Shown here: positions 3,215-47,721 of the stretch, piece by piece
How the letters are laid out: each line of letters starts with the position of its first letter
How positions within the stretch are numbered: position 1 is the first letter of the stretch
IMG/VR virus record: IMGVR_UViG_3300009071_000002
Location: 1 to 55,495 of that record
From: a virus
Reading direction: 5' to 3' (one strand)
Length of the DNA: 55,495 bases
Position numbers and translations under genes: made by a program
Notes under the pieces: generated by a model
Databases searched by the model: none
What the model was told of the DNA's origin: nothing
The model's input: the letters and a program-made list of their open reading frames with translations, nothing else

Positions 3215-3602
3215 TGTCGTACTCCTCCCCTTCACTATAGGATTGATTGTCTAGGTCTTCTGTCTGTACAGTAGTAAGATGGTCTTTTAGTTCCTGTATA
3301 GCTTCGTCAATCTTATCATAGGCTTTCATTGCACTTTGCGGTGATAGCGGAATATGCAGTTTAGCATCTGTTAAAATACTTATTACTAAATCTATCACTG
3401 TGGCACTATTTACTTTAGGTTTGGTTTTCTTATAAAAAGATGCTTCTGTAGATGGGGCATCTCCTGTATAGATAGTTTCGTTATCTCTATGACCATACCA
3501 CTCAACATCCCCTCCTGACTCTACAATACAGCCCATAGGTGCTTCATCACAGTTTGGCCAAGAAGGACACCCTAAGTGTTTATCAATATGTTTGCCCATC
3601 AT
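3207..3602 (-). CDS. Unknown protein with cysteine-rich N-terminus
   Basis: A 131-residue protein. The first 30 residues carry His, Cys and Asp in a compact arrangement (HLGCPSWPNCDEAPMGC) that could bind a metal. The rest is a helical region with a pattern (AYDKIDEAIQELKDHL) and an acidic C-tail. AGAGGAAGG precedes ATG 3602, which overlaps the stop of the upstream gene (ATGATG). No family recognised. Confidence 0.7.
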   Translation of the reverse strand: MMGKHIDKHLGCPSWPNCDEAPMGCIVESGGDVEWYGHRDNETIYTGDAPSTEASFYKKTKPKVNSATVIDLVISILTDAKLHIPLSPQSAMKAYDKIDEAIQELKDHLTTVQTEDLDNQSYSEGEEYDNE

Positions 3603-30554: not shown

Positions 30555-33164
30555 CTATCCAAATGCAATTTGTGCTGCTCCTAATTTAATAGAATTTGCT
30601 GCTGATACAAAATAAGGTATCACATCAATTGAGTTTGCTGCTGTACTAATCGTCAATGCAGCTGCTGCCGGAGTTTCATAGTCTGTTCCTGTACTTAAAG
30701 TTCTACTACCAGTGCCATCTTGAATAAATACTATAATACCAGACTGTCCTACTGCTTCTGTAGAAGGGTTTACTAAAGTTACATTACCTGTTGCTGTAAG
30801 CACAAAGTTTTGATTTGCGTTAAAATCTAATGTTACATTACCAGTTTGTGATCCTGCTGTCAAGGTCTTTCCACGAGCAGCAGCACCAAAGGTTGATACT
30901 AAGTTTTCATCTATGGATATTGCTGGGGTTGTTCCTAGTGCAGAACCTAAGCCTATCACAAGGTCATCGGCAGAGTCATCTAATCCTATATAGAAGTCTT
31001 GAGCATTGCCGTCAAACACAATCTTTGCATCCTCTGCACCAGCATCTCCAATTGTTAATGTTGGAGTACCTCCAGTTATAGTCACATCTCCGTCTATTGT
31101 CAATAGGCTATCGGCTACAGTAATCAGATCTGTATCATCGGTGTGGCCTATTGTTGTTCCGTTGATTAAAACATTATCAATATCTAGTGAACCACCAGAG
31201 ATAAGTCCTGTAGTTGTAATTGTAGAAGAGCCAGTGTCTATAGTTCCAAACCCAGAAGTAATTGAACCAGAATTTAGTGCACCTGTTGTAACGATACCTG
31301 ATCCACCAGCTATTGGACTCAATACAGAAGCTATTGCTGTACCATTAATTGTTATAACGTCAGCTTCTAACGTGCCATCTATATCAACATTCCCAGAGAT
31401 ATCTAATTCTGTAGCAATAATTTTATCGTTAAAAGTTGCAGCTCCAGCAGCACTACCATCTATTGTTAAGAATGTTGTGTCAGCACCTCCGTCTGTTCCT
31501 TTAAATACAATATCACTGTCATTAGCTGCAGCATCTATAACTATGTTACCAGAAGATGTTGTAAGAGTTACAGCTGCATCCCCAGCAGCTATGTCATCGG
31601 CAGCTACACTAGATCCTATGTATGTTTTAATTCTAGAAGCTGCAACTTTTCTATTTGTACCACCAGCAGCATCATCAATAATAAATAAATCTGCATCGGC
31701 TATGTCTGCCCCTATGTCCGTACCACCGTCTATATCTATGGCAGCAAGTGGTAAAGTTCCTGTATCTCCAGAACCTATTAAGTTACCTGTTGCTGTAGGC
31801 AATGTTAACACTGCTGAACTACCTGCAGAATGTGCAGGTCCTTTTAGCTGTACACCATGTGAGTTGTTTTCACAGTTAAACTGGATTGTACCCGGATTGG
31901 TATTACCCAATACAGATACATGTCCTGTACCTTTGGCAGTCAAATTAAGATCTATATTAGAATCATCACCTGTTGCAGATAATAGTGGAGCACTACCAGA
32001 TGCAGCATTAGTTATATCAAATTGATTAACAGCAGAGCCAGTTGTTTGGAATATAATTTGTTCATTACCACTTTCGTCTGCAATAAAATGTGCATCGTCT
32101 ATTAATATGTTTTGAGAATTAGTGTCTAAGTTGCCACCTAATTGTGGGGATGTATCTTCTACTACGTTAGCTAAATCTCCACTTGAACCGGTGCCAGCAA
32201 TAACCGTAGCTCTTGTTATTTTTTTAAGACCACCACCGGATGCATCAACAGCTAAAAGAACATCACCAGATGCAGCAGTGCTAATTTCTGATAAATCTGT
32301 AACAGCTACAGGATTAAAGTTAGTTCCATCTGCAACAAGTATGTGCCCTGCAGTGTTTGTTCCCATAACAAGATCGTCACCAGTTATTGTAAGGTCTCCA
32401 CTTACAACTACGTTACCTGCTACTGTTAGTGAACCATCAGCTAAAGTCATTAAATCTGTATCGTCTGTGTGGCCTATTGTTGTTCCGTTGATTAGTACGT
32501 TGTCAATATCCAACGATCCACCGGAGATAAGCCCTGTAGTTGTAATAGTAGATGATCCTGTATCAATAGTTCCAAAACCCGAGGTAATAGAACCCGAGTT
32601 CAAAGCACCAGTTGTTACAATGCTAGAACTGCCGGCTATAGCACTATATATAGAACCAATGGCTGTACCACCTATTGTTATAGCATCGGCTTCCATTGTC
32701 CCATCTATGTCTGCATTACCAGATATATCTAATGTTGCAGCATCTAACTCACCGGATAGAGTAATGTTAGTTGCCCCTGTAATAGCACCATTTAAAGCAA
32801 CGGCACCGTTTATGTCTATGGTTGTGGCAGCTATTTGTATTTCTGTGTCGGCTACTATGTCAAGTTGCCCATCAGTAGAAGAGTTGATGTACAGACCAGT
32901 GTCTCTAAATTGTATTTTTTCATTAGTTGCTAAGAGTAAATCATCGGAGAACAAAAAGTAATCTTCATCTTCCATCCATGTAAGAACACCATCGTTGGTC
33001 TCTCCGTCAAATGTTAGTACAATGTCTGCACCTGCTGTACCTACTCCAAATGTTGGTGCAAGGAATGCTGCTGCTAATTGGTCAAATTCATTGTTTAAAT
33101 CAACTGCTTCAATAACACCCCCGTCTACTATTGCTGATGAACTCTGTCTAGTATAAACAGCCAT
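30555..33164 (-). CDS. Repetitive tail fibre with internal duplication
   Basis: An 869-residue fibre of the marine podovirus type. The N-terminus (MAVYTRQSSSAIVDGGVIEA; LNNEFDQLAAAF) looks like the virion attachment end; the shaft is made of short beta repeats with Thr-Ile-Gly-Gly-Thr-Ala and Leu-Asp-Ile-Ser-Gly-Asn units; the C-terminus (TLTAGSQTGNVTLDF onwards) is a beta domain usual in these fibres. About 75 residues (from VTTGALNSGSITSGFG to GTTIGHTDDTD) occur twice, encoded at about 31126-31289 and 32459-32620. It should form trimers. Confidence 0.8.
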   Translation of the reverse strand: MAVYTRQSSSAIVDGGVIEAVDLNNEFDQLAAAFLAPTFGVGTAGADIVLTFDGETNDGVLTWMEDEDYFLFSDDLLLATNEKIQFRDTGLYINSSTDGQLDIVADTEIQIAATTIDINGAVALNGAITGATNITLSGELDAATLDISGNADIDGTMEADAITIGGTAIGSIYSAIAGSSSIVTTGALNSGSITSGFGTIDTGSSTITTTGLISGGSLDIDNVLINGTTIGHTDDTDLMTLADGSLTVAGNVVVSGDLTITGDDLVMGTNTAGHILVADGTNFNPVAVTDLSEISTAASGDVLLAVDASGGGLKKITRATVIAGTGSSGDLANVVEDTSPQLGGNLDTNSQNILIDDAHFIADESGNEQIIFQTTGSAVNQFDITNAASGSAPLLSATGDDSNIDLNLTAKGTGHVSVLGNTNPGTIQFNCENNSHGVQLKGPAHSAGSSAVLTLPTATGNLIGSGDTGTLPLAAIDIDGGTDIGADIADADLFIIDDAAGGTNRKVAASRIKTYIGSSVAADDIAAGDAAVTLTTSSGNIVIDAAANDSDIVFKGTDGGADTTFLTIDGSAAGAATFNDKIIATELDISGNVDIDGTLEADVITINGTAIASVLSPIAGGSGIVTTGALNSGSITSGFGTIDTGSSTITTTGLISGGSLDIDNVLINGTTIGHTDDTDLITVADSLLTIDGDVTITGGTPTLTIGDAGAEDAKIVFDGNAQDFYIGLDDSADDLVIGLGSALGTTPAISIDENLVSTFGAAARGKTLTAGSQTGNVTLDFNANQNFVLTATGNVTLVNPSTEAVGQSGIIVFIQDGTGSRTLSTGTDYETPAAAALTISTAANSIDVIPYFVSAANSIKLGAAQIAFG

Positions 33165-39124: not shown

Positions 39125-40756
39125 CTATTGTAAGTTCTCTATTACACTATTTGCATAGTTTTCTTTTTGGTCATTATCTTGATGCCCATAATAGGAACCT
39201 AAAAGTCCTTTTAAAGTACTACTTTCTTCTCTTAAAGATTTTAATTGCAATACTCTTTTGTAAATATTTTTGTACATTTTTTCTGAATTATCTGGAAGTA
39301 ATTCTGGAGGTATACCCTGTTCTTGTTTTGATTTATTACTTGGTAAAAAATACCCCTCTTTTACATATTGTATAAATTCTTGCGGGCTTATGCCTAATAC
39401 TCCCAATGCATCTCTACCTTTAGGGGATTCTCCTGTAGATACTGAACGGCTTGCACTACCGTCAAATAATTGTAAATTTATATTTAATGTTTGAGCAGCA
39501 GTTATTTTATCTACAAAACTTTTTTCAGTTTCACTAAGCAGTTTTACAAATTCTGGATCTGTTAAAGTTTTTTTAACAATCTGCACTGGCCCAAACGCTG
39601 AACTTCTTCCGGCTGGAGAAAAACCTTTACCAACTTTTACAAAACTAAATTTAGGTGTATCTCCTCGCCACTCATATTTTGCTGTAGCATCATAGAGTTG
39701 ATCAGGTGTGTAACCAAAATATGTTTGAACTTCTGTTGGTCTGTCCCCTGTTTCTTGAGGCACAAAATCTGTGGGTTCAACAGTGCTATCTGGAACATAA
39801 TTTGTTTTAGGTAGATCTTGTGTTGTTGGTTTATTTTTTTCAATTTGCCTTTGCATCAAATCTATTTGGTTTTCCCTATCTGGATTTTTTTTTTCTACGT
39901 TATCGGGTGCAGCAAGTGGTGAAGGTATGTCCGTAACTGCTGTTGAAACATCTGATCTAGATTGAACATCTAGACCCATTGCTGCCTCTTGGATAATTGG
40001 AGGCAAATTACTTTTTTGTTTAGGTTGTTCAGCTAACATTTTTTTAGTTTCTTTTGTTCCTACACCATTTATTTCTTCTAATTTATCATAGCCTATAACT
40101 GCCGCAATAACATCAGGAATAATAACTTCACCTTTAGATACAAGAATTTTTTCAGCATCTACAGGAATTTTAGAAGTGTCTAATTTTATTCCTTTTTCTT
40201 GTAGATAAGCCATAGCCTCTTCTATTAGATCATATAGTTTTCTTACACCTATTTTTCTAACAGCAGCAGCATTGATTACAAATCCATCACTTTCTGCAGG
40301 AACATCATCAGCAACACCAGATTTATCTGCCCCGGGTTGATTTACTACACCAACAGGGCCTGCTGCAACTTGACCAGCTTCTTGTTCTGGTGGTTTTTCC
40401 ATTTCTCCCCCTAAAGCTGACATTTGGGGAGCATTTTGAGGCATCTGCCCTTGTGCAGGGCTAGGAGGTACCATAGGTTGCATTTGACCTTGCTGAGCTA
40501 CATTACCACCACGCATAGCATCTAACGATACTCCTTGTGGATTTATAGAGCTTGTTTCTTCCAGATCCTGCGGATTATCTCCTGCAGCCTTCTGTAAAAG
40601 ACCCATAAATTGAGCAACTATAGGTTTTGCTTCTTCCATAAAATTTTGTTCTTCAGGACTAAGATTTTCTTGTATTAATGCTTCCAGTTTTTCACCTTCA
40701 ACGGTAGCACTTCCTTCTGTTAAAAATTCTTGGTCAAATTCTTCTATTTCAGGCAT
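39125..40756 (-). CDS. Virion protein with SLT-like C-terminal domain
   Basis: A 543-residue protein. The N-terminal third is Gln/Pro/Met-rich and disordered. Residues about 155-240 carry DDVPAESDGFVINAAAVRKI and VSKGEVIIPDVIAAVIGYDK, a motif common in phage structural proteins. From about 340 (YEWRGDTPKFSFVKVGKG; SSAFGPVQI) it resembles a lysozyme/SLT-type domain in which S-S-A-x-G-P-x-Q-I lines the active site. It might be a virion-bound peptidoglycan hydrolase. It overlaps the endolysin gene end by 8 bases. Confidence 0.65.
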   Translation of the reverse strand: MPEIEEFDQEFLTEGSATVEGEKLEALIQENLSPEEQNFMEEAKPIVAQFMGLLQKAAGDNPQDLEETSSINPQGVSLDAMRGGNVAQQGQMQPMVPPSPAQGQMPQNAPQMSALGGEMEKPPEQEAGQVAAGPVGVVNQPGADKSGVADDVPAESDGFVINAAAVRKIGVRKLYDLIEEAMAYLQEKGIKLDTSKIPVDAEKILVSKGEVIIPDVIAAVIGYDKLEEINGVGTKETKKMLAEQPKQKSNLPPIIQEAAMGLDVQSRSDVSTAVTDIPSPLAAPDNVEKKNPDRENQIDLMQRQIEKNKPTTQDLPKTNYVPDSTVEPTDFVPQETGDRPTEVQTYFGYTPDQLYDATAKYEWRGDTPKFSFVKVGKGFSPAGRSSAFGPVQIVKKTLTDPEFVKLLSETEKSFVDKITAAQTLNINLQLFDGSASRSVSTGESPKGRDALGVLGISPQEFIQYVKEGYFLPSNKSKQEQGIPPELLPDNSEKMYKNIYKRVLQLKSLREESSTLKGLLGSYYGHQDNDQKENYANSVIENLQ

Positions 40757-41575: not shown

Positions 41576-43210
41576 TTAATAATTTGATCCTCCGTTACCT
41601 TCGTTAAACCTTCCAACTAAATTATAATATAATATGTCATATGGGTTATCTACATCCCTTACTTTTGATTGACTGGTAAGATTTCGTGTATGGCGGCCGT
41701 AATAATCTATCGGAGATGACGTATCTGGTTGCCCCGTATCAACAGTTCTATAAATTTCAGTAGGAACTCCATCTCTAGTCAATTCTTGACCTATACCCGC
41801 TTTTTTTGCATCATATAATCCGCCACGTTCCATAGCTCTTTCTCTATAGTGTTCATTAAATTGTACCATAGCAGCTTCATATTCTTTTTGTGACCCAATT
41901 TGTTTTCCATTTACTTTAGGTGATCCTTGCATAAATCCTTTTATCTCCATTATAGATCGTATCATCATAGAAGCATCTGCATAACCACTTTGATTTATAT
42001 TTTCATATCTTCCTAATCTAGAATTTTCAGCTAAAGCTTTTTTATATGCTGGCTCATAAAATTTTAACCCAAAGTAATCTTTAAACGTATTTAAATAATC
42101 CGAAACTGCTGCTGCACCCGCTTGTCCAGATTCAGTTCTGTAACCATTATAACCATACCCTGAAGTTGCTTGAAAATAGTTATTTTTAAACGCTATATCA
42201 GCTCCACCTTTTGCATATTTAGGTTTCCCCCTTCGGCTTTTTAAAAAACTTACTAATCCTTTAAAAGCTCCATACGCTACTGCTACAGGGTTTCCAGTAA
42301 ATATTGCATATGTAGCTATTGCAGCATCTACTTTACCCTCTGTAGTTTGTGGGATACCTCCTTTAAAGGTATAGTACAAAGCAGCTGCTTTAATAGCGTA
42401 TGGAGCATACTTAGATACATTAGCAGCAATTTGTTCTCCAGTTCCCGGGGGAATATACGGAGCTAACCCCGTTTGTGTTCCCATTCCACCGTAGATACCT
42501 TTTGCTGCATCAAATGCGTAAGCAGACATAACTTGTCCGGTTGTAGATAGAGTAGAGGCAAATTCTGCCCCGTATGGGCCAGAGTAGTCTAGTGCAGCTA
42601 AATTACACGGTGGAGCATCAAACCTTTCTGGTGGATCAAAAAGAGATTTTACTTCACTACCTACTTTTCTTGCTCTATTAATATCCCCAAAAGTATCTTG
42701 CAAATCTTGCATTTGTTCCTCTAACCAAGATAAATTTTCTTGCTTAGGTCCCATTTGCTCCCCACCCTCTTCTAGTGACATGCTGTCATCAGTAAGAGAA
42801 ATGTCTTCTAACATCTGTCTATCTTCTATAGTTACAGTATCACCTAATTGTGTTGCTGTAATATCCTGCTGTTCTAAAGCATTTAGATTTGCTACAGGAG
42901 TTTCTGGAAAAATGTCTCCAGCGTAGGATGTGTACTTTGATCTCTGTTTAGCTTCTTCTTCACGTTTCTTTTTTAGAGCCTCTGGACTTAGTCCTTTTAC
43001 TAAACTATCTAAGCCGTACCCTAAAAAATCTTCTCTCTTTAACGATACGGAAGGAGCGTCATCTAAGGATACACCTTCCAATGAAGCTTTTTGACTACCT
43101 TCAAGCTCTTCTTTAAATTCTTTTGAAATTTGTTCAGAAGAAGATCGTTCAAAAGCTGTGACAGTAGGGTCTTGTACTTTTTGAAATGGTGCTAACGCAT
43201 TAAGAGACAT
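41576..43210 (-). CDS. Unknown late protein between portal and holin
   Basis: A 544-residue protein with a disordered, acidic N-terminus (to about 190), a hydrophobic Ala/Gly-rich middle (YAPYAIKAAALYYTFKGGIP; TYAIFTGNPVAVAYGAFKGL) and the tag-like KYAKGGADIAFKNNY. The C-terminal part is soluble and aromatic. It may be membrane-active or a virion protein. Its ATG overlaps the stop of the overprinted gene 43200-43445 by 11 bases, so translation is coupled. No family recognised. Confidence 0.65.
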   Translation of the reverse strand: MSLNALAPFQKVQDPTVTAFERSSSEQISKEFKEELEGSQKASLEGVSLDDAPSVSLKREDFLGYGLDSLVKGLSPEALKKKREEEAKQRSKYTSYAGDIFPETPVANLNALEQQDITATQLGDTVTIEDRQMLEDISLTDDSMSLEEGGEQMGPKQENLSWLEEQMQDLQDTFGDINRARKVGSEVKSLFDPPERFDAPPCNLAALDYSGPYGAEFASTLSTTGQVMSAYAFDAAKGIYGGMGTQTGLAPYIPPGTGEQIAANVSKYAPYAIKAAALYYTFKGGIPQTTEGKVDAAIATYAIFTGNPVAVAYGAFKGLVSFLKSRRGKPKYAKGGADIAFKNNYFQATSGYGYNGYRTESGQAGAAAVSDYLNTFKDYFGLKFYEPAYKKALAENSRLGRYENINQSGYADASMMIRSIMEIKGFMQGSPKVNGKQIGSQKEYEAAMVQFNEHYRERAMERGGLYDAKKAGIGQELTRDGVPTEIYRTVDTGQPDTSSPIDYYGRHTRNLTSQSKVRDVDNPYDILYYNLVGRFNEGNGGSNY

Positions 43211-43445
43211 TCTTTCTCATTTCTTTAAAATTATCCTTCAACTTGAGGAGCATTTCCAGTAAACCCGCTTTCCCCTGCAGTCGGTACACTTCCAGTTCCG
43301 ATGGTGCTACCACCAGTGCCGCTAGGGTCTGCTTGTGGAGGTTGTTGAGGTACTCCTCCAACACCTGCCATTCCAGCTTGTCTTGGCTGAGGAGCGGAGT
43401 TAGGGCCTTGAGGGGCTCCTTCCGGTTGTTCTGGTTGTTGGGCAT
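43200..43445 (-). CDS. Overprinted gene inside the portal 3' end
   Basis: An 81-residue frame, shifted against the portal and overlapping its last 215 bases. The protein looks folded: helical, with normal hydrophobic spacing (LEWQVLEEYLNNLHKQTLAA; ELEVYRLQGKAGLLEMLLKL). The portal in the same bases is a Gln/Pro/Gly low-complexity tail. AAAGGATTACAAG gives ATG 43445 a proper ribosome site. The N-x-x-E-V-L-E-E-Y-L ... E-L ... Q-G-x-A-x-L-x-x-L pattern resembles small proteins that follow portal genes in other podoviruses. I judge it real. Confidence 0.75.
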   Translation of the reverse strand: MPNNQNNRKEPLKALTPLLSQDKLEWQVLEEYLNNLHKQTLAALVVAPSELEVYRLQGKAGLLEMLLKLKDNFKEMRKNVS

Positions 43446-45342
43446 CTTGTAATCCTTTAAGTATTTCAGCGTATATCTGTGCTTCGTTTACATCGTTTAC
43501 TAAGCTGTCAGGATCAATATCCTGTGATATAGCTAGTTCTTTTAACAGGTTTGGTATTTTAATAAATGGTGCAAGCATTGGATTTCCTACAGTTTGCAAC
43601 AATGCTGTTAATCTTTGTGAACGTACTTCTTTTTGCATTACAGAAGCAGCTCCTTTTGGTTTAATTTCAAGATCTCCTTCTATATCTGGGTTATCTTCAT
43701 TAAACTGCATGTTCCATTGAAACAATGCCTCTCCTACAGGTTTAAGAAGATAATCATCTAAGTTTTTAATAACTGTTTTTATAGATAATCCTGAAGAGCC
43801 TAGCAACATAGATAAACCTGCAGCAGTTCTGCCTGTACCTGTTACACCAGTTTGACCATGCATAATGCTTGGTATGCCCGTTTCTTCATCAGCAAGTTGC
43901 CTTGCTTTGTCATACATTTGTATATTTTCACCAGCGGTGCTAGGAAATTTTATAGCGTTTACAGCAGTCCCAGTAACTCCTGACTGTCTTCTAAACACTT
44001 TTCCGGGAAAAATGTCGTAATTCTGTCCGGGTACAAGGGATGTTTCATCTACATCAAATACAAGGTTGCCAGCAAGTGCTAAATTATCTATAGCCATGCG
44101 TACATGCCCATTCATTAACATCTGTGCATCTTCCATGTTTTCTGGAATACCCACACCCCATATTTGATAGGGGTTTATTTCATATGGAAATATAGAATAG
44201 GGTAATCTAGCTGGCGTAAATGGATTTATACAAGCCCTTAATATTTGACCTCCTGAAATCCAAATGTTTACTTGAACTTCATCTAAATCATCCATGTCGG
44301 CAGCTTCTTCTAATCCTATTTGTTTAGCAAAAGTAGAATCTATTGTTCCCCAGTATTCTAACACTTCGTATCTTTCACTATCTACATATGGTTGAGTTTC
44401 GTCATCACGAATTGTATCTTCAAAATACTTTTCTTCGTAATTACCACCCCCAGCAATAACTTCTCTTATTGCTTCAGGATCAAACATAGGCATATTCATA
44501 AGATTACGTAATTGGGAACGATTCATTTTATGACGTTGTATAATGTACTCACAATCATCTACATTTGTTGCAGATGGATCGGAATATACATCCCAACAAC
44601 TGACAGCTTCTAGACGAGGAACTAATTTAGGATACGGAGTGTATGTTTTTGCACCCGACTCATCTTTTTCCCATTTATGAACAGTTTTACCAAAGTTAAA
44701 TGGTCCTTTAATTATTCCTGTACCCAATAGAGCAGATTCAAATATAGCATGACGTAAAACATTTACAGCATTAGTATCTGTAAGCTGATCATGCATAACT
44801 TTTTCCATACGCAAAGCTGCTTTTTTAGCTGGAGATATTTGGGGTTCTCCCATCCTTGAAGGACCTTCTGCTAAAGGAGCGTCTGCCCCATATTTGTTAG
44901 CTAATGATCCTAAAAAATCTAAATCAGCAGTTGCTTCTGTTGCTCCCGGATTTAATTGTTTTCCGTCACCTTCAAAACCATATGGACTAGATGATATTTC
45001 ATCAGCTGGTGTTTTAAGGTGAGCAAATTCTGCAATTCCTTCTGGTACAGGAGTAGACTCTACAGTAATTGGAAATTTTTTATTAGCAAATAAAATATCT
45101 ACAATTTGACCATAAGCAGCAAGCACTTTAGTTTTAGTTATTTTTATAAATACCTTAGATTTTTCAGTACTTGTGTACTGTGTAGTAGAATCATAAATAC
45201 CCCTAAAATTTTTATACGCTTTTAACCAGCGTTGTTCATGGGTTTGTCTACCGTCTTCGGCTGCTCTCATACGTTCTTGAATTAAACCTATAAGTCCAGA
45301 GCCTTCAGCTAAGGCTTCTTTTGCATCAATTGGATCAGACAT
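43231..45342 (-). CDS. Portal protein
   Basis: A 703-residue podovirus portal of the marine type. Key segments: RWLKAYKNFRGIYDST, EKSKVFIKITKTKVLAAYGQ, the wing region around CWDVYSDPSATNVDDCEYII, the crown-side PYSIFPYEINPYQIWGVGIP, and GQTGVTGTGRTAAGLSMLLG. It forms the 12-fold ring through which DNA is packaged and to which the adaptor binds. The last 70 residues are a Pro/Gln/Gly tail that doubles as coding sequence for gene 43200-43445. AAGGAACAGT precedes ATG 45342. Confidence 0.9.
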   Translation of the reverse strand: MSDPIDAKEALAEGSGLIGLIQERMRAAEDGRQTHEQRWLKAYKNFRGIYDSTTQYTSTEKSKVFIKITKTKVLAAYGQIVDILFANKKFPITVESTPVPEGIAEFAHLKTPADEISSSPYGFEGDGKQLNPGATEATADLDFLGSLANKYGADAPLAEGPSRMGEPQISPAKKAALRMEKVMHDQLTDTNAVNVLRHAIFESALLGTGIIKGPFNFGKTVHKWEKDESGAKTYTPYPKLVPRLEAVSCWDVYSDPSATNVDDCEYIIQRHKMNRSQLRNLMNMPMFDPEAIREVIAGGGNYEEKYFEDTIRDDETQPYVDSERYEVLEYWGTIDSTFAKQIGLEEAADMDDLDEVQVNIWISGGQILRACINPFTPARLPYSIFPYEINPYQIWGVGIPENMEDAQMLMNGHVRMAIDNLALAGNLVFDVDETSLVPGQNYDIFPGKVFRRQSGVTGTAVNAIKFPSTAGENIQMYDKARQLADEETGIPSIMHGQTGVTGTGRTAAGLSMLLGSSGLSIKTVIKNLDDYLLKPVGEALFQWNMQFNEDNPDIEGDLEIKPKGAASVMQKEVRSQRLTALLQTVGNPMLAPFIKIPNLLKELAISQDIDPDSLVNDVNEAQIYAEILKGLQDAQQPEQPEGAPQGPNSAPQPRQAGMAGVGGVPQQPPQADPSGTGGSTIGTGSVPTAGESGFTGNAPQVEG

Positions 45343-45357
45343 ACTGTTCCTTCTATA

Positions 45358-45603
45358 TTATGGTGTGTACTTTGAAGCACCCATTACTGTACCTAACGCA
45401 CCTGTTTGGTTTGCTGAGACAGATTTAGAGTCTTGTGTAGATTGAAATGGTCCGTTAATAGTACCGGCATTAGCACCAGCAATGCTTCCATCTAAAGCTT
45501 CACGATGTAATGAACTTTCATTAGCTTCATTCATTGCTCCTTGTTTACTCATCTGGCCCATTATGTAACCTGATTTGTAAGCTCCTGATACTCCTTGTGG
45601 CAT
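45358..45603 (-). CDS. Small protein upstream of the portal
   Basis: An 81-residue Ser/Ala/Gly/Asn-rich protein (MPQGVSGAYKSGYIMGQMSK; ending GTVMGASKYTP), likely disordered. AAAAGGAG precedes ATG 45603. Small genes at this place are common in marine podoviruses. Possibly a virion or assembly factor; unknown. Confidence 0.7.
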   Translation of the reverse strand: MPQGVSGAYKSGYIMGQMSKQGAMNEANESSLHREALDGSIAGANAGTINGPFQSTQDSKSVSANQTGALGTVMGASKYTP

Positions 45604-45630: not shown

Positions 45631-47721
45631 TTAAAATACTTCTTGTTTTTGTTCATCTAGATATATCAATTTACGACTATCTAAAATTTCTTTATCTTTA
45701 TCAGATAAAAAAGAACCTTCTGATTGTCTTAATTCTGCTACGTTTTCTTCTGTACTTGCAGGTTCCATCATAAGATTAGACCTAATTGTAATGTCTTTTT
45801 CTTCTGCAGATTTTAAATTTTTAGCCCGTTCTCCTGTATAATAATTTTCCGGAACTTCATTTGGAAATATTGCAAATTGAGCAAGTTGTTCTTCTACTGC
45901 TCTGTCTCCTTGTACTGCATATCTAATAGGTTCAAGAAGACCCATATATGGAAGTGCCTTTAGTCCTGCTTTTCCTATACCGTTTCTCCAAGCTTTTAAT
46001 CTTTGTTGAAATGTTCTTGGAGTTTCTTCGTTCATTCGCACAGGCCTACTGTCTTCTAACCTATTTTGTTCATCCATAATTTCTTCATCAGTTAAATTAG
46101 TACCTCTAATTGCATCTCTACTATCTTGGGCTTTTGCTCCCCTTTCCGCATCTATATTAAATTTACGTTCTGTTTTTCTTTTAATTTTTTCTTCTTCAAG
46201 AAATTTTTCGTTATTTGATATATCCTCTAAAGTTTCTTGATTTAATTTTGAAGCTTCAGCAAATCTTTTACGAGAATTAAGAAGAGCTTCCGACACTGCA
46301 TCATCAATATAGGCAGCATTGTTAGCATCTAAAGTGTGTAATCTACTGCTATTAGAATTTAAATTTTTAGCAAAATTAGTTTCGTGACTTTGCTCCCAAT
46401 CTATTAATGCAGCTTTTGGCATCCAACCCATAGCGTAAGTATGACGTAAAATTGCATCTTTTGCAGGTATTGCTGTATTATGTTTTACTTTAATTTCTGT
46501 TTCTGGTATAAGTATTTTACCACCAGTATTTTTGTACTCATTAATAACTCCATCTTTAGATAGTAAACTTTCTACAGAATTATAACCAGAGTAAGCAGTG
46601 TATTGATTATCTAAAATATCCATACCCGGAGTTATTATAGTTCTTAAAGCACCTTCAGTACTCATATATTTTATCATGGATACTGGAAGTTTTATACCAT
46701 GTGTTAAATTTTGATTATTAATAGCATTTTGAGTTATATAAAAAGGGTCTCCTTGTGGTAAATCTCCTCGTGCAAAAAGTGCACCAGATCTATCTTTAGC
46801 TAAATTTCTTATAAAAATTCTTGTTGGATTTTTTGTTTCATATTCTCCTAATCTTTCATTAAATACTTTAAATACTTTAGATGCATCTGTATTGTCAGGA
46901 ACATATGTATTTTTTAAATTATCTACTATTTCTTTATTTATTACAGCAGCATTTGGAAAAAGTTCTTTTCTACCATCTAATAGAGCTAACTGTCTGGCTC
47001 TTAAAACATAGTATCTTTCTAAATCTGTAAAATACGATAATCTACCTTTAGCAACATTTGCTTTTAAATTTTTAACTGCATCACCGCTATTATCTAATGT
47101 AGGATTATTTACATCATCAAAACTATCTACAGTTAACCTACTAAATTCAGCCGCTCTATCTCCTGTTAAAAATAGTAACCTAGCAGTAATTCTATCAATA
47201 CTACCTTTTGGATAAGTTTCTATATGGCGAGTTGTTGTAGCATATATATCATCTGGTATACTTGTAGGAACAACTCTGTCACCTTGACCACCAATCTTTA
47301 CGGCATAGCTACTATCTCCCGCAGATAATCTACTCATAGGTTTAACATCTGTATATTTTTCAAAAGTTGGGTCCATATAACCTTTTAATATTTTAGGACT
47401 ACCAAGTTTTTTATCTAATATATATTTTTGATTACTTAACTTTACATAATCTTTTGGAGACATATTAGCTATACGCATATCATTGTCAGGAAAACTATGA
47501 TTTCTATATTTTATCATAGTTGTAATCATTGCACTAACATCTGCTTTATTTAAACCTTTAGCAGCATTTACAGTGCCAGACTCTAAACTTTTTAATATTT
47601 TACTTTTCATATCAGCGGGTATAGAAGTATTCTGCATAAATGCTTCATAAGATTTTGCAGTCATTCCCGGTTGGGTTGTAAGCCTCTCAATAAAAAGATC
47701 TTCTACGGTAATATCAGCCAT
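45631..47721 (-). CDS. Large protein with tyrosine-recombinase-like domain
   Basis: A 696-residue protein between TerL and portal. Residues 174-200 (IDRITARLLFLTGDRAAEFS) match the Arg-I box of tyrosine recombinases, with R189; ALLDGRKELFPN (about 246-257) suits the later core; and 423-430 (AILRHTYA) matches the H-x-L-R-H-T box, R426, with the first His replaced by Ala. No Tyr stands about 32 residues on, where the nucleophile should be, so recombinase activity is doubtful. The rest is charged and helical. It may be a virion or packaging protein built on that fold. The start overlaps the TerL stop by one base. Confidence 0.6.
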   Translation of the reverse strand: MADITVEDLFIERLTTQPGMTAKSYEAFMQNTSIPADMKSKILKSLESGTVNAAKGLNKADVSAMITTMIKYRNHSFPDNDMRIANMSPKDYVKLSNQKYILDKKLGSPKILKGYMDPTFEKYTDVKPMSRLSAGDSSYAVKIGGQGDRVVPTSIPDDIYATTTRHIETYPKGSIDRITARLLFLTGDRAAEFSRLTVDSFDDVNNPTLDNSGDAVKNLKANVAKGRLSYFTDLERYYVLRARQLALLDGRKELFPNAAVINKEIVDNLKNTYVPDNTDASKVFKVFNERLGEYETKNPTRIFIRNLAKDRSGALFARGDLPQGDPFYITQNAINNQNLTHGIKLPVSMIKYMSTEGALRTIITPGMDILDNQYTAYSGYNSVESLLSKDGVINEYKNTGGKILIPETEIKVKHNTAIPAKDAILRHTYAMGWMPKAALIDWEQSHETNFAKNLNSNSSRLHTLDANNAAYIDDAVSEALLNSRKRFAEASKLNQETLEDISNNEKFLEEEKIKRKTERKFNIDAERGAKAQDSRDAIRGTNLTDEEIMDEQNRLEDSRPVRMNEETPRTFQQRLKAWRNGIGKAGLKALPYMGLLEPIRYAVQGDRAVEEQLAQFAIFPNEVPENYYTGERAKNLKSAEEKDITIRSNLMMEPASTEENVAELRQSEGSFLSDKDKEILDSRKLIYLDEQKQEVF

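Follow-up and report, generated by a model that had tools for sequence, protein, structure and literature searches.

Identification of a second reading frame at the portal 3′ end

The 3′ end of the portal gene in a marine phage genome poses the question of whether one stretch of DNA there encodes two proteins and, if so, which of the two is the older. The genome studied here (termed the window, the whole of a 55,495-base virus record) is that of an HMO-2011-type marine podovirus, as judged by its homologous portal, TerL and major capsid genes and by a length within the ~ 53–56 kb expected of the group. The portal gene (43231–45342, minus strand) encodes a 703-residue member of the SU10/P22-type portal family (PHROG 332, E = 6.7e-77; Pfam PF23899 SU10_portal, E = 7.5e-25) that is 48–52% identical to the portals of HMO-2011 and of the Pelagibacter phages HTVC033P, HTVC104P and HTVC115P. 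Most of its Gln/Pro/Gly tail lies beyond the family models, the PHROG 332 match ending at residue 666 and the SU10_portal match at residue 551.

The head module is arranged in the order TerL, a 696-aa protein, an 81-aa protein, the portal, the small frame studied here (termed S), a 544-aa protein and lysis genes, with the major capsid gene farther down. The gene for the 544-aa protein (41576–43210, minus strand) has no assigned function, and a search of PHROG and Pfam returned no family above threshold. The genes around the head module at 39125–40756, 45358–45603 and 45631–47721 (minus strand; 543, 81 and 696 aa, respectively) gave no confident PHROG family. Two long plus-strand open frames with TTG/GTG starts (31006–32025, 339 codons; 32122–32961, 279 codons) were also observed antisense to an 869-codon gene (30555–33164), and are probably composition-driven.

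The S frame occupies positions 43200–43445 on the minus strand, where the 81 codons proposed in the initial annotation were recovered with an ATG start and in +1 relative to the portal. The proposed 215-nt overlap with the portal gene was also found, a figure that includes the portal stop codon, and positions 43231–43445 of the minus strand thus encode portal residues 633–703 in frame 0 and S residues 1–71 in +1. The Shine–Dalgarno-like AAAGGA that had been noted upstream of the ATG is located at 43453–43458 (minus strand), within the portal codons for Lys-Gly and separated from the ATG by 7 nt. In the overlapped bases the portal tail is indeed rich in Gln, Pro and Gly, and contains a motif (termed T; DPSGTGGSTIGTGSVPTAGESGFTGN; 43252–43329, minus strand) that is shared with the non-overlapping portals of HMO-2011, CRP-2, CRP-235 and phiM6. 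The same bases carry, in the +1 frame, the conserved core of S, SELEVYRLQGK (43269–43301, minus strand). Beyond the portal stop S continues into the first 11 nt of the next gene, a second overlap on which the initial annotation was silent.

A local rise in GC content had also been reported. The rise itself is real, at 0.557 in the overlap vs 0.366 in the rest of the portal gene, but it is no signature of overlap. The non-overlapping portal tails of relatives have a GC content of 0.548, and stand-alone S genes one of 0.380; GC-richness belongs to the tail in all relatives and was rejected as a sign of overlapping genes.

When the window portal codons were shuffled synonymously, ~ 18–20% of the shuffles kept the S frame open (12 of 60 in one set). 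An open S frame in a single sequence is, taken alone, weak evidence for a gene, and the fact that about 18% of such shuffles stay open would suit a chance, unexpressed ORF in a GC-rich tail.

Conservation of S among related phages

A set of 542 portal loci was collected from IMG/VR contigs, phage isolates and the window, and the exclusion of 15 loci cut within the portal left 527 that were complete. Of these 527 related loci, 520 carry S at the 3′ end of the portal gene, a count in which the IMG/VR contigs are partly redundant and the S start codons were picked by a simple rule. Three marine clades make up 394 loci (115 window-like, 145 HTVC033P-like and 134 HTVC104P/115P-like), and in all 394 there is a long overlap of about 160–224 nt between S and the portal in the same +1 frame. 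Stops in the S frame beside an intact portal would speak against a second gene; none was observed among these 394 loci, and this openness across relatives is decisive against chance. A Shine–Dalgarno-like site of at least 4 nt precedes the S start in 253 of 324 long-overlap loci.

Next, each product of the window was scored against a profile built only from sequences free of the overlap. Window S reached 44.5 bits against non-overlapping S genes, compared with 2.8 ± 3.9 bits for synonymous shuffles preserving the portal, while the portal tail reached 21.8 bits against non-overlapping tails, compared with −2.6 ± 3.6 bits for shuffles preserving S, of which merely 0.08% keep the portal frame open. 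Both products therefore beat shuffles that preserve the opposite frame, indicating that each frame holds information not forced by the other.

Within an 80-sequence alignment of S (A2), Gly58 is invariant and Gln57 nearly so. S is separate from the portal gene, or overlaps it slightly, in alpha phages (HMO-2011, the CRP phages, phiM6 and Rhizobium phages) and in gamma phages (CHOED, MQM1 and Slicky01). Where the two genes overlap the frame is always +1, whereas separated arrangements use frames 0, 1 and 2.

A few loci were unusual. In IMGVR_UViG_3300029448_004324 (L355), a frameshift within the overlap fuses the portal and S in one frame (portal ...MAGSGG-LNQQTVVFRALTAAISESELRQLQGK...), which could reflect either misassembly or a genuine fusion. 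Two deep Rollin-type loci with no S-profile match, L457 and L458, have a portal tail that is still richer in Gly/Ala and contains a +1 ORF of ~ 70–80 codons; the L458 ORF is borderline S-like (8.4 bits vs a shuffle maximum of 8.2) and the L457 ORF is not S-like. Locus L482 has a Slicky01-like portal without S, and the sole small ORF at its portal stop (after the portal end at 3489) is unrelated and Lys/Glu-rich; S may have been lost or replaced there.

Profile matches, together with alpha and gamma members in a further alignment (A1), identified S as homologous to small post-portal genes annotated merely as hypothetical: HMO-2011 phage1322_50, CRP-2 gp59, phiM6_11, CHOED_090, RHph_N3_19 EVB99_108 and MQM1_05. 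All occupy the same place, with the portal on one side and the next structural gene on the other. These genes are separate from the portal or overlap it by 1–74 nt, whereas in the window clade and the HTVC pelagiphages nearly the whole of S lies within the portal gene and is unannotated. S is absent from the GenBank records of HTVC033P, HTVC103P, HTVC104P, HTVC115P, CRP-1 and CRP-345, probably because gene callers reject long overlaps. In HMO-2011 (L085, 4488–4703), an ATG with a strong Shine–Dalgarno site lies 39 nt upstream of the annotated phage1322_50 start and gives a 71-aa product and the 74-nt overlap; as this ATG is conserved in HMO-2011 relatives, the annotated start (GTG, 58 aa) is probably too late. 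The paper on HTVC033P lists the portal among the core genes (PMC9038755), and a term search of its text returned no mention of the overlap. Literature searches likewise found no description of a portal/S overlapping pair.

Selection in the doubly coding stretch

Selection was studied in 124 non-overlapping pairs of relatives by classifying the changes in the doubly coding stretch by site class, as pairwise counts without a codon model. Sites that are synonymous for the portal and nonsynonymous for S differed at 0.0725, sites that are synonymous for S and nonsynonymous for the portal at 0.168, and doubly nonsynonymous sites at 0.063. Upstream of the overlap, the same portals gave a pS of 0.334, a pN of 0.089 and a dN/dS of 0.215. 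Stand-alone S genes gave a pS of 0.355 and a dN/dS of 0.147, and stand-alone portal tails 0.283 and 0.277, respectively. Portal-frame synonymous sites are therefore ~ 4.6 times slower within the overlap than upstream, which supports the earlier proposal that the tail is shaped by the second gene, and S-synonymous change in the overlap is half the stand-alone S rate. The class-specific rates and their controls show purifying selection on both frames in the shared bases. From the comparison with stand-alone genes, S is about as constrained as when it is alone, and the tail is constrained too, but more loosely; the two frames constrain each other, S being under the stronger constraint. Some slowing of both site classes could come from codon-pair or GC constraints, but the two stand-alone controls show no sign of it.

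Along the portal gene pS is flat near 0.33 and then falls from 0.26 to 0.08 to 0.06 at the start of S, and the 20-codon windows that begin exactly at the S ATG have a portal pS of 0.08, 0.06 and 0.07. This drop in portal synonymous change at the exact ORF start argues against a chance ORF, as do the homology of S to stand-alone genes and its confident predicted fold (below). With homology and selection both against it, the chance ORF was rejected, and we give it practically no credence.

Predicted structure of S

AlphaFold, supplied with the 80-sequence alignment, predicted S to be a confident helical hairpin (mean pLDDT 85.7, core 98) with helices at residues 9–19, 24–45, 50–67 and 69–80, in line with the helical protein proposed from the sequence. 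The AlphaFold model of the portal has a low-confidence C-terminal stretch (pLDDT < 50) at residues 633–703, exactly the part encoded over S. On these models, an ordered S and a disordered portal tail are encoded by the same bases.

Searches with S against Pfam and NCBIfam gave nothing above cut-off, and PHROG returned no named family, its best matches (E = 0.0003–0.002) being single members of unassigned function; S was thus placed in no named family of these three collections, and no known domain that would back a portal or assembly role was found in them. Comparison of the predicted fold with the PDB gave no match below E = 0.97, and Foldseek against viral models found only unnamed small phage proteins at a TM of ~ 0.7, with no neighbor of known function.

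Relative age of S and the portal tail

The initial annotation had offered a second possibility, that the tail gave rise to S. Two points would suit a recent birth of S from the portal tail: de novo origin is common among long +1 overlaps, and the downstream frame is a small one. Against this, alpha, gamma and Y3-type phages have S homologues that lie outside such an overlap. Many phages of other hosts, among them phiM6, CHOED, Slicky01 and the CRP phages, carry S as a gene in its own right, and a homologue is present beside the tail-less portals of gammaproteobacterial prophages. A birth from the tail was rejected on the strength of these homologues, and is considered very improbable.

The prophages in question are the deep-branching Y3-type gammaproteobacterial prophages, whose portals end without the Gln/Pro/Gly tail. 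Several of them have a 57–71-aa S homologue at the portal stop or no more than 14 nt from it, which hhalign matched to gamma-phage S at E = 8.8e-10 and to all S at 2e-4; the score against all S was 25.1, and column-shuffled controls reached at most 17.3. These outgroup portals lack the tail and keep S, as would be expected if the tail were the newborn partner. Because S is separate in relatives and also stands beside tail-less portals in deep-branching prophages, the portal tail most likely overprints an older S gene. It may be that the tail was lost in the tail-less prophages rather than gained elsewhere, and the branches leading to them are long.

Ancestral overlap or later superposition

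The motifs T (DPTGAGGGNIGTGxVPxPGExGFSGN) and S (SExxxYRxQG) are both conserved in alpha phages, where they lie on different DNA. In the pelagiphage clades they lie on the same bases, which in the window read VPTAGE and YRLQGK. As T and S are both conserved on separate DNA in the Roseobacter/HMO phages, an ancestral overlap was probably unpacked later. The overlap, with T and S on the same bases, would then be ancestral to the whole HMO-2011-type family, an extension of the tail-over-older-S account; we give this extension even odds. Unpacking would have occurred in the Roseobacter/HMO/Rhizobium phages and in the Vibrio/Aeromonas/Pseudoalteromonas phages, and, as part of the same reading and on an equal footing with it, a duplication or unequal recombination would have produced two copies, the first retaining T and the second S.

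Several observations point this way. Overlapping and separated phages alike conserve T (HTVC033P, DPSGAGGGNIGTGDVPMPGEAGFSA; HMO-2011, DPTGAGGGNIGTGQVPVPGEQGFSA) as well as S. The overlaps are always in +1, in contrast to the three frames of the separate arrangements. The portal/S overlap of the Rollin-type outgroup phages ranges from tens of bases to ~ 146 nt, and is in +1 at all 13 of their loci with S. In a first quick tree, the long-overlap phages all fell to one side of a branch supported at 54, while a later, more careful tree, with more outgroups and a mixture model, made them paraphyletic, with long outgroup branches; there the window clade is sister to the gamma phages (92/78) and the HTVC033P clade is sister to the alpha phages (87/90). 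However, AU tests reject neither a single long-overlap clade (P = 0.186) nor a single alpha-plus-gamma clade (P = 0.267), and T is weakly similar in gamma phages. The separated phages also bear no trace of a duplicated segment, though divergence is saturated there; a search of the unpacked phages for a duplication scar, by the S-likeness of the +1 reading of T and by T/S DNA similarity, gave nothing above the null. Apparent S-like matches in the +1 reading of T were rejected, being due to the true 74-nt overlap.

Alternatively, the family ancestor would have carried T and S apart, and in the pelagiphages the original tail was lost, the portal then overran S fully and T re-evolved in the second frame. 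A single gain of the long overlap is equally parsimonious if the overlapping clades are monophyletic, which the AU tests allow. Gly/Pro/Thr-rich tails are also permissive, as permuted tails encode S-like residues in +1 almost as well; the pre-adaptation of T to encode S is weak (mean z 0.5). This sequence of events, however, requires the convergent return of a motif of ~ 25 residues under the constraint of S, and T scores far above its null given S (21.8 vs −2.6 bits). Both the best tree and the overlap in the outgroup speak against it, and a secondary superposition is judged unlikely. Since the best tree makes the overlapping clades paraphyletic and the outgroup overlaps as well, unpacking is favored and is more likely than a T rebuilt on S by convergence. 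The affinities of the alpha phages are mixed, T being nearest the HTVC033P clade and S nearest the HTVC115P clade, which is compatible with recombination. We put at slightly below an even chance the reading in which an ancient doubly coding end has stayed packed in three abundant marine clades and was unpacked on two or more occasions elsewhere.

Expression, function and significance

Taken together, S is best explained as a genuine, old, small head-module gene that is expressed with the portal and that was later overprinted by the portal tail, a joint reading to which we assign a probability of about 80%. S would be translated from its own Shine–Dalgarno site inside the portal cistron, and its translation is probably coupled to that of the portal and of the next gene. 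Coupling to the latter is likely as the ATG of the next gene lies within the last S codons. The portal would have gained its disordered tail later, by reading on through S in the other frame, leaving S as the older text and the tail as an overprint, each frame now limiting the other. The near-constant linkage of S to the portal, its place before the next head-module gene and the nested Shine–Dalgarno site suggest that it is produced along with the portal protein and takes part in head assembly or binds the portal, alongside which it may act.

The pair resembles the overprinting and 3′-extension overlaps reviewed for viruses (PMC8227390) in its +1 frame, in the mutual constraint and in the pairing of an ordered with a disordered partner. 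Typical +1 overlaps are short, with a median of 14 nt (IQR 8–26; PMC8903798), and 84% of overlaps between virus genes measure less than 50 nt (PMC7017920). The present pair is unlike these in that the upstream portal appears to be the overprinter, the older downstream gene is almost entirely overlapped, and relatives carry the pair unpacked.

Phages of the HMO-2011 type belong to the dominant viruses of the sea (PMC9038755), and several isolates are annotated in GenBank without a gene that is near-universal in the group. S can now be flagged as a conserved small head-module protein without an assigned function. Hundreds of natural portal/S sequences that range from packed through partly packed to unpacked, a likely polarity and a constraint that can be measured in both frames together make the cost, stability and loss of overlapping genes directly testable. 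If the ancestral overlap and its later unpacking are true, two proteins that share one stretch of DNA in pelagiphages have adjacent but separate coding DNA in the relatives of these phages, which would amount to a natural experiment on what an overlap costs and what it buys.
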